Below, piece by piece: positions 12,365-28,721 of a stretch of DNA of 64,000 bases (its first letter is position 1; every line of letters begins with the position of its first letter). A model generated the notes under the pieces. That model searched no databases. It was not told the DNA's origin and was given only the letters and a program-made list of their open reading frames with translations. The stretch comes from Deltaproteobacteria bacterium (GTDB taxonomy: Bacteria; Myxococcota_A; Polyangia; Polyangiales; JADJMO01): contig JANYDK010000017.1 in the NCBI GenBank assembly GCA_025363655.1, positions 1-64,000 of the forward strand, written 5' to 3'. The position numbers and the translations under genes were made by a program.

Positions 12365-12410
12365 CACCCGCACCCGCGCCGCACCCGCGCCCGCACCCGC
12401 GCCCGCGCCC
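12365..12410. repeat. CCCGCA/CCCGCG simple repeat
   Basis: About 46 bp of imperfect hexanucleotide repeat (ACCCGC/GCCCGC) lies between the terminator and the promoter of the CcmE-like gene. It may be slippage-prone or a transcription-insulating GC block; no function is shown. Confidence 0.8.
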
Positions 12411-12447
12411 GATGCCGGCGGGCACACCAAGTGCTAACCTGCCCCCC

Positions 12448-13194
12448 ATGTCCCTGCCCTCCGATCCGCCGAACGGCGCCCGCGGCGAAGAAGACCCGCT
12501 GGAAACGCCGGAAAGCGACGACGAAGCGCCTGTCGCCCTTCCTCGCGTCGAAGCCAAAGCGAGCGGTCCGCGCAAGCTCCACAGCCTCCCCGGTTCGCTT
12601 TTGGGCGCATTTCTCGCGCTCGCCGGTTGGGCCTATCTCGGAGTGGGTAGCTTTGCCGGCAGGTTGGGCATCGCGTTGGTGGGTTTTGCCCTCGGTCAGC
12701 TCGCGGTCTACCTGGTCACGGGCGGCGAGGAACAGAAGCAGCGCAAGCTCCTCCTCCCCGTCGGGCTCATCGCTGGCACCGGCACCCTCGTGGCCGTCGT
12801 CCTCAGCTTTGCCAGCAGCACCATCTACTCGATCGGCGTCGACGAGCTCGTCGGCAACAAGGGCAAGTGGACGGGCCGCACCGTCCGCGTCGACGGCACG
12901 CTCGTGCGCGGCACCCTGAAATTCCGCGAGAAACCTTGCGAATATCAGTTCGACGCGACCAAGGGCGGACAGACCCTCCACGTCCGCTATCCCGCTTGCA
13001 TCAAGCCCGACACGCTTCGTGACGACATGCCCGATGTCGGCGTCACCGCCGAAGGAAAGCTCGAAGCCGGCGGCGAGTTCCTCGCGACCAACGTCCTCGC
13101 CAAGTGCCCGTCGAAGTACGAGATGAAGGACAAGGCCAAGCAGCAGCCGGGGGCCAACGCGATGCCTGGAGGCCCGCCCGCGCAGCTTCCCTGA
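12448..13194 (+). CDS. CcmE-like haem chaperone of the CxxxY type with extra N-terminal membrane helices
   Basis: 248 residues. Residues ~136-228 match the CcmE OB-fold: TVRVDGTLVRGTLKF, then VGVTAEGKL, GEFLATNVLAK and CPSKYEM. In classical CcmE the last motif is LAKHDENY, whose His binds haem covalently. Here it is Cys220-x-x-x-Tyr224, the CxxxY variant described for archaeal and Desulfovibrio-type Ccm systems. Residues ~101-127 form the expected membrane anchor, but two further helices (~50-90) precede it, after a charged Pro/Glu N-terminus; classical CcmE has one anchor. Two extra Cys (164, 184) are present. No other ccm gene is adjacent. ATG 12448 follows TAACCT by 7 nt; an ATG at 12412 is less likely. 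Confidence 0.75.
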   Translation: MSLPSDPPNGARGEEDPLETPESDDEAPVALPRVEAKASGPRKLHSLPGSLLGAFLALAGWAYLGVGSFAGRLGIALVGFALGQLAVYLVTGGEEQKQRKLLLPVGLIAGTGTLVAVVLSFASSTIYSIGVDELVGNKGKWTGRTVRVDGTLVRGTLKFREKPCEYQFDATKGGQTLHVRYPACIKPDTLRDDMPDVGVTAEGKLEAGGEFLATNVLAKCPSKYEMKDKAKQQPGANAMPGGPPAQLP

Positions 13195-13237: not shown

Positions 13238-13266
13238 TTGTCGTTATTCGACCAAACACCTAGTCT
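13238..13266 (+). promoter_or_regulatory. Promoter of zinc-ribbon membrane protein gene, near-leaderless
   Basis: TTGTCG (13238-13243), a 17-bp spacer and TAGTCT (13261-13266). The ATG at 13277 is 10 nt after the -10 element, leaving at most a few nucleotides of leader and no room for a Shine-Dalgarno. Confidence 0.6.
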
Positions 13267-13276
13267 GGCGCTTCGC

Positions 13277-13801
13277 ATGGCCGCCGCACCGATCAATTGC
13301 CCTTCCTGTGGCTTCAAGAACGCCCACGGCACCAAGCGGTGCGTCTCGTGCGGCTCGCGCATCGCCGAAATCAAGGTCGAGCGCACCAAGGCCGAGCTCC
13401 TCGAGCGGCGCTACCAGCAAGACGCCTTCTCGGTGACCTGGCTCTTCATCGCCCTCGTCGTCCAGGCGGTGCTCACGGGCGCCATCATCATGGGCCTCCC
13501 CCAAGTCGTCGGCGCACTCGATTTCGAGGGCTCGCACGGCATGATCACCTCGATCGCCATCTGGTTCATCGGCGGTCTGCTCGTGGGGCTCATCTCGCCA
13601 GGGCGCACCTTCCTCGAGCCGGTCATCGCCAGCTTCGTCGTCGCCATCCCGACGGTGCTCTTCCTCTACAAGACGGAAACCGTCTTCACGCTCCCGCCCA
13701 TCCTCTACATCGTCCTCGGCGCCATCGGCGTCATGTTCGCGCTCATCGGTAGCTACCTCGGCGAGCGCATCCAGCTCGGCCCCGCGCCGAAGACCGAATA
13801 A
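13277..13801 (+). CDS. Membrane protein with N-terminal zinc ribbon
   Basis: 174 residues. Residues 8-29 form a CPSCGF...CVSCGS zinc ribbon, likely cytoplasmic. A charged helix (~33-50) and four hydrophobic segments (~55-75, 90-110, 117-135, 142-162) follow. This zinc-ribbon plus four-helix layout is common among uncharacterised myxobacterial proteins; no enzyme motif is visible. It lies 82 bp after the CcmE-like gene with its own promoter and 24 bp before the next gene, with which it is probably co-transcribed. Confidence 0.65.
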   Translation: MAAAPINCPSCGFKNAHGTKRCVSCGSRIAEIKVERTKAELLERRYQQDAFSVTWLFIALVVQAVLTGAIIMGLPQVVGALDFEGSHGMITSIAIWFIGGLLVGLISPGRTFLEPVIASFVVAIPTVLFLYKTETVFTLPPILYIVLGAIGVMFALIGSYLGERIQLGPAPKTE

Positions 13802-13825: not shown

Positions 13826-14434
13826 ATGGCGAGACGAGAACGCGGCGACGGGGAGGAGGGCGACGACCGTCGTCGCAGTCGTCTCGAGAGCGTCATCCCC
13901 GACCTCATCAAGAAGGCCGTGCAAGGCGGCTACGATCGCGCGACCGGCGCGGCCGAGACGCTCAACAGCTTCATCGGCGAATCGAAGCTCCCGAAGGAGA
14001 TCGTCAACGCGATCTTCGGGCAAATCGACGAGACGAAGAACGGCCTCTTCCGCGTCGTCGCCAAGGAAGTGCGTGGTTTCCTCGAGGCCGTCGACTTCCA
14101 GCGCGAGCTGCAGAAGCTGCTGACGACGGTGTCCTTCGAGATCAAGACCGAGATCCGCTTCATCCCGAACGACAGCATGCCCGAGAAGCTCGGTCGGCCG
14201 CAGGTGAAGGCGAACATGAAGGTGAAGCGTCAGCGCGATCGCGAGAAGCCGAAGACGCCGCGCGAAGAACGCGAAGAGCGTGAGCGCGAAGAGCGCGAAG
14301 CCGACGAGCGTGAAGACGCTGCCAAGGCCGACGCCTCACCCGAAGTGCCGCCGCCGCCGCTCGAAGACGACGACTCCTCCTCGAAGGACGCGGTCGCCTC
14401 GAAGGCCGAGCCCGACGACGAAGATTTCCCCTGA
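13826..14434 (+). CDS. Conserved hypothetical cytoplasmic protein with charged C-terminal tail
   Basis: 202 residues. A basic/acidic N-terminus is followed by a predicted helical core (~20-130, e.g. LIKKAVQGGYDRATGAAETL) and a long low-complexity tail of Arg/Glu repeats, Pro and Asp/Ser. The core loosely recalls phasin- or poly(hydroxyalkanoate)-granule-like helical proteins, but I cannot assign it. It probably forms an operon with the zinc-ribbon protein gene 24 bp upstream and converges on the next gene (11 bp between stops). Confidence 0.55.
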   Translation: MARRERGDGEEGDDRRRSRLESVIPDLIKKAVQGGYDRATGAAETLNSFIGESKLPKEIVNAIFGQIDETKNGLFRVVAKEVRGFLEAVDFQRELQKLLTTVSFEIKTEIRFIPNDSMPEKLGRPQVKANMKVKRQRDREKPKTPREEREEREREEREADEREDAAKADASPEVPPPPLEDDDSSSKDAVASKAEPDDEDFP

Positions 14435-18598: not shown

Positions 18599-19549
18599 AT
18601 GGTGAAGTGGTGGCTGTTGGCGTTTTGCGGGGTTGCGGCGTGTGCGCGGACGGAGGGTGCGGGGGTGAGCACGGGCGCAGGCGCGAGTGCAGGCGCGAGT
18701 GCGAGCGCAGGTGCGAGTGCGAGTGCGGGCGCGAGTGCGGGCGCAAGCGCAAGCGTCGAAGATGGGCAGCAGGTCTACGCGTGGTTGGCCGATCCGAAGT
18801 CGGTGCATCCGGAAGTGGTCGACGATCTGCGATCGCGTTTCACTCCGCCGGCCGGATTTTCTCGGGTGAAATTGCGCCCCGAGTCTTTTGGCGCGTTCTT
18901 GCGGACGTTGCCTTTGGCGGCATCGGGGACGCCGGTCCTCAACTACAAAGGGGGCGTGCTGCATCCAGGTGACGACCCGAACATCGCAGCGGTCGTGGCC
19001 ATCGATGTCGGGACTGCCGATCTGCAGCAATGCGCGGACTCGGTCGTGCGCATGCACGCGGAGTGGCTCTTCTCGCACGGTCGCGACGACATCACGTATC
19101 GCGCGGCGTCCGGCACGATGATGCCATTCACGAAGTGGCTCACGGGCGAACGGCCGGTCGCGAATGGGATGTCGATCACGTGGAAGAAGACTTCGCCGCC
19201 CTCCACGCCGACGCACGCGGTCTTTCGTCAGTATCTCGACGGCGTCTTCAGCTGGGCCAACACCGTCGCCCTCTCGGTGCAGGCGAAACCCGTCGAGCTC
19301 GCCGATCTCGCGCCCGGTGATTTCGTCGTTCAAGGTGGCAACCCCGGTCACGCCGTCCTCGTTTTGGACGTCGCCGTCGCCGCCGACGGTCGCCGCGTCG
19401 TCCTCCTCGGTCAGGGCTACATGCCCGCGCAAAGCTTCCAAGTCCTTCGTCCCAACTTGGTCAGCCCATGGTTCACCGTCGAAGGCGAATCGTTGAAGAC
19501 GCCGTACTGGGATCCATTTCCCTGGACCACCCTTCGTCGGCTCTATTGA
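18599..19549 (+). CDS. DUF4846-like lipoprotein with Gly-Ala-Ser repeat stalk
   Basis: 316 residues. The signal ends near CGVAAC (lipobox-like). Residues ~22-53 are a (Gly-Ala-Ser-Ala)n linker. The rest resembles DUF4846 proteins: FGAFLRTLPL, MPFTKWLTGERP and NPGHAVLVLDVA are typical pieces. The domain is of unknown biochemical function and usually secreted. TAGGGT lies 7 nt before the ATG at 18599 with only a G-run between. It is 24 bp after the kinase gene and may also be read through from it. Confidence 0.7.
   Translation: MVKWWLLAFCGVAACARTEGAGVSTGAGASAGASASAGASASAGASAGASASVEDGQQVYAWLADPKSVHPEVVDDLRSRFTPPAGFSRVKLRPESFGAFLRTLPLAASGTPVLNYKGGVLHPGDDPNIAAVVAIDVGTADLQQCADSVVRMHAEWLFSHGRDDITYRAASGTMMPFTKWLTGERPVANGMSITWKKTSPPSTPTHAVFRQYLDGVFSWANTVALSVQAKPVELADLAPGDFVVQGGNPGHAVLVLDVAVAADGRRVVLLGQGYMPAQSFQVLRPNLVSPWFTVEGESLKTPYWDPFPWTTLRRLY
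18671..18754 (+). repeat. GCGAGTGCR-type coding repeat (Gly/Ala/Ser linker)
   Basis: About 84 bp of degenerate 6/12-bp repeats (GGCGCGAGTGC variants) encode the Ala-Gly-Ser stalk of the DUF4846-like lipoprotein. Multiples of three keep the frame, so copy number could vary without breaking the gene. Confidence 0.8.
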
Positions 19550-26377: not shown

Positions 26378-26641
26378 ATGATGCGACGCCTTCTCGCGCC
26401 CCTCTTCGCCGCCCTCCTCTCCGTCACCTTCCTCGCCAGCCTCCCCGGTTGCCCCGAGGACAAGAGCAAGACCGACAAGGACAAGACCGACAAGTCCGAC
26501 AAGGCCGACAAGAAGAAGAAGGCCAAGGACGACGACGACGACGACAAGGCCGACAAGAAGAAGAAGGCCAAGGACGACGACGACGACGACAAGAAGAAGA
26601 AGAAGTCGAAGGACGACGATGACGACAAGGGCGGCTGGTAG
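26378..26641 (+). CDS. Small Lys/Asp-repeat lipoprotein
   Basis: 87 residues. The signal ends in LASLPGC. Everything after is low complexity, with alternating Lys and Asp blocks including two copies of ADKKKKAKDDDDDDK. Two adjacent ATGs (26378, 26381) are possible starts. A similar charged stalk is seen in the lipoprotein at 4620. The 3' end overlaps the start of the MauG-like gene by 23 bp, so translation is probably coupled. It may be a polyelectrolyte-like envelope protein; no function is assigned. Confidence 0.65.
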   Translation: MMRRLLAPLFAALLSVTFLASLPGCPEDKSKTDKDKTDKSDKADKKKKAKDDDDDDKADKKKKAKDDDDDDKKKKKSKDDDDDKGGW

Positions 26642-28721
26642 TCGCCTGCGGGCGTACGGCGCGCAGCTCGTGCTCGCGCTGTCGCTCGCGGTCGGGTGTG
26701 GCGCGGGGACGAAGAAGGCCGTTCCCACGGGCGACGGTGATCGCGCGCTCGCCCCGCTGCGTGCCTACGAAGAAGGTCGACGCGTCTCGACCGATTTCGC
26801 CCATCTGCCACCGAGCGATCGGGTGATGGGCGCCGATCCGTACGCGGTGGTGGCGCTCCCGGGTGGCCGCACGCTCGGTCTGCTTCGAGGCGACGCCGCG
26901 TTGGTCGTGCTCGACCAAGACCTCGTCGAGCGACAGCGCTTGCCGACGTTCGAGGAGCCGACGGCGCTCGCAATCGACGCCGACGGCCGCGTCTTCGTCG
27001 TCTCCGAACGCGCGAGCACGATCGCGCGCTTTCATTGGGACGAAGGGTCGAAGAGCCTGCTCGCCGACTCGCCGCTTTCGCTCGAAGGTGTGCTCGGCGC
27101 GCGTGGCATCGCCGTCGGTCCCGAAGGTGCCCTGCACGTCGTCGAAGAGCACGACGGCCGTCTCCTGACGTTCGTTCCGGTTGCGCTCGAGTACACGCGC
27201 TCCGAGAGCTTCGTCGGTCACGGTGCGCTGCGCGTGGTGCGGACCAAATCGTTCGTGGTGACGCTCGCTCTCCTCGATCACGATCTCGTGGTCCGGCACG
27301 TCGATGCCCACGGCGTCCCGCTCACGGCAGGTGAATCGCGCCTCCACACCGACGGACCCTGCTGGGGCATCGCTGCGTCGGAGGCCTCCGACGGCGTGCT
27401 CACCGTCGTCGCGGGTGGCGTCGAAGATCATCCGCTCGATCGCACCGGTGGCTTTTTCGGCTACGTCGACTCGTTCTTCTATGCGTATCGCGTCACGTCC
27501 GCCGGCGCCGAACGAACCCTCGCGCTGAACCTCTCCGAGTCGTTCGTCGTCACGCCCAAGGCGCTCGTGCTCGCGGTCGACAAAGCTGCCGACAAGATTG
27601 GCGAGAATGGCTTCGTCGCCGACGTCGTCGGGTACGGCGGCGAAAAACGCGCGCGCATTCATTTCGGCGTCGGCACGCCGAAGCTCGAGACCGCGTCGTT
27701 CCCGCCCGGAGGCACGGCGCTCCTCGTGCGTGACGATGGCGCGCTGGCGGTGGCCAATCCGTTGCTGGACGCCTTCGTGCTCGAGAAGACCGACAAGACC
27801 GAGAAGCCCGCGGCGCCTCGCGTGGTCCCCGTCGGCACGCCGCCGCGCGACGTCGAATCACGCCTCGGCGAAGCTCTCTTCTTCACTTCGCTGATGGCGC
27901 CCGACAACGTCAGCGAAGGCGCGCACAGCCGCTTCACCTGCGAGACCTGTCACTTCGAAGGCCACGTCGACGGTCGCACGCACCACACCGGACGCGGCGA
28001 GGTCCACGCCACCACCAAGCCGCTCCTCGGGCTCTTCAACAATCGGCCGCATTTCACGCGCGCGCTCGATCCCGATTTGACGACGGTCGCGCACAACGAG
28101 TTTCGCGTCGCTGGCGCGGGCAGCGGTCACGATCCTTGGTTCACCCTCACCGCGGCCGATCACGCGTGGGTGAAGAGCCTCGGCGTCACCAGCGAGACGG
28201 TCCCGCCGACGACGCTCCGTCGTTCGCTCATGAGCTTCCTCATCGACTTCACCCCGCGCCAGAACCCGGCGGTGGCTGGCCGAACCAAGCTCACGACCTC
28301 CGAGCAGCACGGCGCCGAGCTCTTCCGCGATCGTTGCGAGAGCTGTCACTCGGCGCGCCTCTCGACCGACGACGCGAGCACCCACGTCGCCTTCGAGAAG
28401 TGGGAGTCGCTCCTCTTCAGCACGTCGTCACCGCTCGTCTGGGCCAGCCCCGAGTACCAAAAGACGGGCGTCATGCCCTACGTCCACGACAAGGGCGCGC
28501 GTACGCCCTCGCTCCGCCGGCTCTTCCGCAAATATCCATATTTTACCAATGGATCGGCGAAGAGCCTCGACGACGTGCTCTTGCGCGCTCGCTTCGGCGA
28601 CGACGGCACCTTCCTGCACGCCGGTGGCGAGGGCGACGCGCAGCTCCAGCCCCTTCCGCCACTTCATGCGCTCCAAAACGACGGAAGGCGCGACTTGCGC
28701 GCCTTCCTCGAGCTCCTTTGA
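26619..28721 (+). CDS. Di-haem cytochrome c peroxidase/MauG-like lipoprotein with N-terminal beta-propeller-like domain
   Basis: 700 residues. The signal ends in SLAVGC. Residues ~60-400 have repeated strands like a six- or seven-bladed propeller (ALAIDADGRVFVVSE, GIAVGPEGALHVVEE). The C-terminal ~290 residues hold two haem-binding motifs, CETCH (441-445) and CESCH (573-577), with the second followed by a MauG/CCP-like tail (KYPYFTNGSAKSLDDVL). Family members use di-haem centres for H2O2-dependent oxidation or protein modification. The ATG at 26619 lies inside the preceding gene (23-bp overlap). The substrate is unknown. Confidence 0.85.
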   Translation: MTTRAAGSRLRAYGAQLVLALSLAVGCGAGTKKAVPTGDGDRALAPLRAYEEGRRVSTDFAHLPPSDRVMGADPYAVVALPGGRTLGLLRGDAALVVLDQDLVERQRLPTFEEPTALAIDADGRVFVVSERASTIARFHWDEGSKSLLADSPLSLEGVLGARGIAVGPEGALHVVEEHDGRLLTFVPVALEYTRSESFVGHGALRVVRTKSFVVTLALLDHDLVVRHVDAHGVPLTAGESRLHTDGPCWGIAASEASDGVLTVVAGGVEDHPLDRTGGFFGYVDSFFYAYRVTSAGAERTLALNLSESFVVTPKALVLAVDKAADKIGENGFVADVVGYGGEKRARIHFGVGTPKLETASFPPGGTALLVRDDGALAVANPLLDAFVLEKTDKTEKPAAPRVVPVGTPPRDVESRLGEALFFTSLMAPDNVSEGAHSRFTCETCHFEGHVDGRTHHTGRGEVHATTKPLLGLFNNRPHFTRALDPDLTTVAHNEFRVAGAGSGHDPWFTLTAADHAWVKSLGVTSETVPPTTLRRSLMSFLIDFTPRQNPAVAGRTKLTTSEQHGAELFRDRCESCHSARLSTDDASTHVAFEKWESLLFSTSSPLVWASPEYQKTGVMPYVHDKGARTPSLRRLFRKYPYFTNGSAKSLDDVLLRARFGDDGTFLHAGGEGDAQLQPLPPLHALQNDGRRDLRAFLELL

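Follow-up and report, generated by a model that had tools for sequence, protein, structure and literature searches.

A cysteine-type CcmE with predicted additional N-terminal helices and a CcmF-CcmH fusion in a genome of the Polyangiales

A gene for a CcmE-like haem chaperone in which cysteine takes the place of the haem-binding histidine lies within a 64 000-nucleotide stretch of a draft genome of the Polyangiales (assembly GCA_025363655.1, contig JANYDK010000017.1, positions 1 to 64 000; hereafter the window). The gene stands alone and its product is preceded by hydrophobic segments, from which the initial annotation proposed an atypical cytochrome c maturation route of the kind that lacks CcmH. 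The locus therefore raises the question of whether its product is a genuine CcmE and, if so, what kind of Ccm system it serves. Features of the window that bear on this question are collected in Table 1.

Table 1. Features of the ccmE locus and of associated genes in the window
Feature	Position	Strand	Basis and remarks
ccmE (cysteine-type, System I*)	12448..13194	+	ORF, translation, Pfam PF03100; 248 aa from the ATG at 12448, 260 aa from the alternative in-frame ATG at 12412
Two extra hydrophobic helices (predicted), residues 51-64 and 69-90	12598..12717	+	Hydropathy; AlphaFold, low confidence
Canonical CcmE membrane anchor helix, residues 99-122	12742..12813	+	Aligns with the single TM helix of relatives; AlphaFold model
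Periplasmic OB-fold haem-chaperone domain	12826..13125	+	Pfam residues 127-226; model; Foldseek to 8ce8_E, 1sr3 and 2kct
CPSKY haem-binding motif	13105..13119	+	Cys220 codon 13105-13107, Tyr224 codon 13117-13119; sequence and E. coli alignment
Zinc-ribbon membrane protein, next gene	13238..13801	+	Pairs with ccmE in all four same-family genomes
Di-haem c-type protein (CETCH, CESCH)	26619..28721	+	Distantly MauG/MbnH-like; extra N-terminal region

The ccmE gene and its N-terminal extension

The Pfam CcmE model matched residues 127-226 of the product at 62.9 bits (E = 3.8e-17) against a cut-off of 24.6, which puts the match far beyond chance. Alignment to PDB sequences with phmmer paired VLAKCPSKYE of the window protein with VLAKHDENYT of Escherichia coli CcmE (1sr3, 8ce8), setting Cys220 and Tyr224 opposite H130 and Y134. 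This alignment places Cys220 at the haem-binding position, as the initial annotation had read it, and Tyr224, four residues further on, at the conserved tyrosine. The OB-fold recognized at the same time was recovered in an AlphaFold model (72 relatives in the alignment) with a pLDDT of about 97. The best PDB match of the model by Foldseek was 8ce8_E, the CcmE of a CcmABCDE complex, and comparison with D. vulgaris CcmE (2kct) gave an rmsd of 2.3 at 31 % identity. An N-terminal anchor is likewise present, and the predicted topology would put the OB domain that follows it in the periplasm. We conclude that the gene product is a genuine, cysteine-type (System I*) CcmE. By analogy with its homologues it would carry haem covalently on Cys220 and deliver it to CcmF. 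A covalent role for the equivalent cysteine has been demonstrated experimentally in M. acetivorans (C120) and D. desulfuricans (C127) (PMC9084895; PMC3601427). A report on D. vulgaris CcmE describes non-covalent haem binding at that cysteine (PMC3884852), and a thioether bond in the window CcmE thus cannot be assumed.

The additional membrane helices described at the outset are indeed predicted in the reading frame, which encodes three hydrophobic helices and not one. Hydropathy analysis of 202 CcmE sequences found hydrophobic segments ahead of the usual anchor in the window protein only, and the CcmEs of four genomes of the same family have one TM helix each. A search of the retrieved loci for homologues of residues 1-97 found none (best E 0.12), and Pfam gave a sub-threshold match to an ECF transporter only. 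Compared with the same four genomes (L038-L041), in which ccmE and the zinc-ribbon gene point away from the gene at 13826, the pair is inverted in place in the window with respect to the neighbouring genes (13826, 14446 and those for an anti-sigma and a sigma factor), so that a breakpoint lies close to the extended 5′ end. One might guess that this inversion was the source of the N-terminal extension. The two predicted helices appear to have been acquired by this genome alone, possibly in connection with the local inversion of the ccmE pair. If translated, they would keep the N-terminus on the inner side of the membrane and the OB domain on the outer side, since the number of helices is odd and positive residues lie on the inner side, a combination that should keep the topology unchanged.

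It is possible, if rather unlikely, that the extra helices do not form part of the protein at all, either because translation starts later or because foreign sequence was joined on at an assembly repeat. Their occurrence in a single CcmE is consistent with such an artefact, as are a 45-bp CACCCG/CCCGCACCCGCG tandem repeat directly 5′ of the extended frame (12365-12411), the lack of an obvious Shine-Dalgarno sequence before ccmE, the moderate pLDDT of only about 55-70 for helices 1 and 2, and a codon-position GC bias that is weaker in the extension (0.75/0.52/0.74) than in the core (0.65/0.46/0.88). Against this, the extension has an open frame in which GC is lower at the second codon position than at the other two, a pattern typical of coding DNA; the helices are flanked by positive residues (PRK, KQRK) where the cytoplasmic side is expected; and no in-frame ATG occurs between 12448 and the CcmE core. 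G+C-rich or low-complexity repeats may act as assembly break points. A further short G+C-rich repeat is present at 18680-18750 of the window, and another contig of the genome, C125, starts in a low-complexity repeat coding for Gly, Ala and Asp.

Two other genes of the window deserve mention. The pairing of the zinc-ribbon gene with ccmE suggests that its product may be tied to haem handling. The di-haem c-type protein, previously proposed as a protein in need of a maturation system, does contain both of its CXXCH motifs and probably depends on the Ccm system for maturation; its NCBIfam matches to MauG/MbnH were weak and under the curated cut-offs (E = 2.6e-5 and 1.6e-4). A tandem repeat array with a period of 45 lies directly upstream of this gene (26459-26626).

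Ccm genes elsewhere in the genome and the CcmF-CcmH fusion

The genome containing the window (G000) is a 9.0 Mb draft of 150 contigs and is 96 % complete. A profile search of this assembly returned no second CcmE above the cut-off, the classical HxxxY type included, leaving the CxxxY protein as the sole CcmE. The isolation of ccmE noted earlier applies to its neighbourhood and not to the genome, where CcmB, CcmC and CcmF were found on contigs C111, C125 and C107, as is expected for System I. CcmF occupies a frame of 968 aa and presents the WGGHWAWDPVEN signature; the histidine in this signature (WGGHWAWD) was examined as a possible novelty and discarded, since either type shows free variation at this position (Y, F, A, W). 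Two ABC ATPases, at 126 and 116 bits, fell slightly short of the CcmA cut-off of 131.6, and neither adjoins ccmB. Searches for CcmG gave general redoxin-like matches only (best 63.8 bits, cut-off 123). System II in place of Ccm was rejected, with no ResB/CcsB above the cut-off in this genome. A third Cytochrom_C_asm match, on contig C113, adjoins a HemA-like frame and was read as HemX-like. The ccm genes of this genome are thus dispersed, not missing, with the assignments of ccmA and ccmG uncertain.

The solitary position of the window ccmE, together with helices seen in no other CcmE, might be taken to indicate a stray paralogue that has left any ccm operon for a new function, for instance in storing or sensing haem. 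We consider this very unlikely: the genome has retained CcmB, CcmC and CcmF and has no other CcmE, CcmB and CcmC stand equally apart from other ccm genes, the protein preserves its haem motif, and over the core it shares 70 % identity with the nearest relative.

Examination of the CcmF frame revealed a CcmF_C domain at residues 442-771 followed by a CcmH domain at residues 831-931 (PF03918, 50-52 bits, over the Pfam cut-off). In the fused domain the LRCxxC motif is replaced by CxCx2Cx7CxC, with five cysteines, each conserved in no fewer than 27 of 28 fused CcmH domains. The model of a related variant CcmH comprised three short helices and a TM helix, and matched P. aeruginosa CcmH (2hl7) with a probability of 1.00, although the E-value was no better than 0.06. 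Across a sample of 56 genomes of the order, G000 included, 53 had a CcmH match, and in at least 44 of these the best match fell on a frame of 800 aa or more, indicative of the fusion. CcmF-CcmH fusions were also present in acidobacterial loci (L236, L241 and L247). We came across no account of a naturally fused CcmF-CcmH in the literature searched, which is not proof of absence. In many genomes the fusion is followed by a zinc-ribbon protein that, by our own reading, resembles the start of CcmI; one gene in this position (L058:18079-18729) ends in a zinc ribbon, like the neighbour of ccmE in the window.

A stripped-down System I* in which CcmF acts alone, as in archaea and Desulfovibrio, could be expected from the CxxxY CcmE that is a hallmark of CcmH-less systems, and cysteine-type Myxococcota with no CcmH match do exist (e.g. 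G191, G234 and G059), but this reading, hinted at by the initial annotation, is contradicted for the present genome by the CcmH domain in frame on CcmF, by the wide sharing of the fusion in the order and by the structural match of the variant CcmH to 2hl7, and we regard it as extremely improbable. Nor does a missing CcmH mark the variant as had been supposed. Absence of CcmH belonged to the original 2006 definition of System I*, from which this genome departs, and was dropped by Stevens 2011; approximately one-third of bacteria with a CxxxY CcmE possess CcmH, and its absence is not characteristic of System I* (PMC3601427).

Distribution of cysteine-type CcmE and its association with CcmH type

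CcmE was present in 55 of the 56 genomes sampled from the order, and all 51 of the CcmEs that were read carried CPSKY or CPSRY. A motif search of named genomes, using a pattern itself biased towards CPSKY, returned loci labelled Polyangiaceae, Labilithrix, Sandaracinaceae and other Myxococcota, followed by non-myxococcal loci from Acidobacteria, Chloroflexi, Gemmatimonadota, Latescibacterota, Zixibacteria and KSB1. Cysteine-type CcmE is therefore standard across this order of myxobacteria, and the surprise first expressed at finding it there was misplaced. The headline observation is known biology, as CPSKY is the commonest motif of System I* CcmE and delta-proteobacteria had already been given as the main holders of the cysteine type (Stevens 2011; PMC3601427).

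Reading of CcmE from 126 Myxococcota genomes, which were not a random draw, identified 35 of the histidine type and 91 of the cysteine type, and CcmH was also read for 87 of these genomes. A classical LRCxxCQ CcmH accompanied CcmE in all histidine-type genomes (35/35). Of the cysteine-type genomes with a CcmH read, 51/52 were without the classical form and instead displayed five-Cys, SPxCPG or APCCW motifs, or motifs that we left unclassified. The exception, G155, had both kinds of CcmH. Its CcmE motif is CPSKF, and the classical ccmH is located beside a proteobacterial-looking ccmF on a separate 13-kb contig (L354), possibly the result of contamination or transfer. A further genome (G200) combined a classical CcmH with a weak CcmE match. 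Histidine- and cysteine-type CcmE are parted by one branch of the tree with 100/100 support, so that the association counts as approximately one event. Outside the phylum, three cysteine-type genomes (G265, G271 and G274) carried an LYCPVC, and hence CXXC, CcmH. Given the single branch, the non-random choice of genomes and these three exceptions, the association is no strong evidence for co-evolution, and we rejected it as proof thereof.

The non-classical forms of CcmH were diverse. Separate CcmH proteins with a vicinal, APCCWNQT-like motif occurred in cysteine-type loci L073, L074, L076, L082, L090, L094, L298 and L305, and G004 carried such a CcmH in addition to a match on a CcmF-length frame. 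A third form, SP[FY]CPG..L..C.S, which contains one of the two classical cysteines, was seen in other families of Myxococcota (L285-L297, L299-L304, L312 and L315-L324).

Proposed haem transfer and comparison with known systems

In sum, these results indicate with high probability that the window encodes a membrane-anchored, periplasmic cysteine-type CcmE that functions within a dispersed System I*, in which CcmH is present as a CcmF-CcmH fusion. In such a system, CcmC would hand haem to CcmE, where it would be held at Cys220 with Tyr224 as the likely axial ligand. CcmA and CcmB would drive haem release, CcmE would pass the haem to the WWD site of CcmF, and CcmF would join it to CXXCH apocytochromes, aided by the CcmH domain of the same polypeptide. 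The sequence of these transfers, the part played by the five-cysteine CcmH domain and the identity of the ABC ATPase that serves as CcmA are our inferences.

How haem is released from its thioether bond to the cysteine of System I* CcmE is a puzzle that has been raised previously (PMC3601427). The order offers a cysteine chaperone together with a single-chain CcmF-CcmH synthase, and the release question can accordingly be posed to a compact pair of proteins. A doubtful but conceivable answer is that cysteine-type CcmE and the cysteine-rich CcmH form one co-adapted thiol module, whereby the CcmF-tethered domain would help to break the haem-cysteine bond and would replace the LRCxxC relay; were this true, the fusion and the association between CcmE residue and CcmH type would be its genomic signature. 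The window CcmE itself adds little, given that cysteine-type CcmE of this group is already in the literature. The variant features are the CcmF-CcmH fusion, its cysteine motif and the private predicted N-terminal helices.

Comparison with characterized systems sets these features in context. The window protein shares its OB-fold, the substitution of cysteine for histidine and the CPSKY motif with the System I* CcmEs of D. desulfuricans, D. vulgaris and M. acetivorans, and differs from them by its two additional predicted N-terminal helices; at the level of the pathway, a CcmH domain is present here, whereas D. desulfuricans and archaea are without CcmH. With E. coli CcmE, a System I protein of the HxxxY type, it has in common the fold, the membrane-anchored layout and the position of the haem residue, but it contains cysteine in place of histidine and three predicted helices instead of one, and its ccm genes lie outside a single operon. 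The CcmF-borne domain, which matches PF03918, is comparable to CcmH of P. aeruginosa (2hl7) and to the N-terminal CcmH domain of E. coli (2kw0), yet it is covalently fused to CcmF and displays CxCx2Cx7CxC (27/28 fused domains) rather than LRCxxC. Haem-ligation partners are also united in one chain in CcsBA and in E. coli CcmH, which corresponds to CcmH plus CcmI (PMC10663686; PMC3601427), whereas the fused pair described here is CcmF and CcmH.
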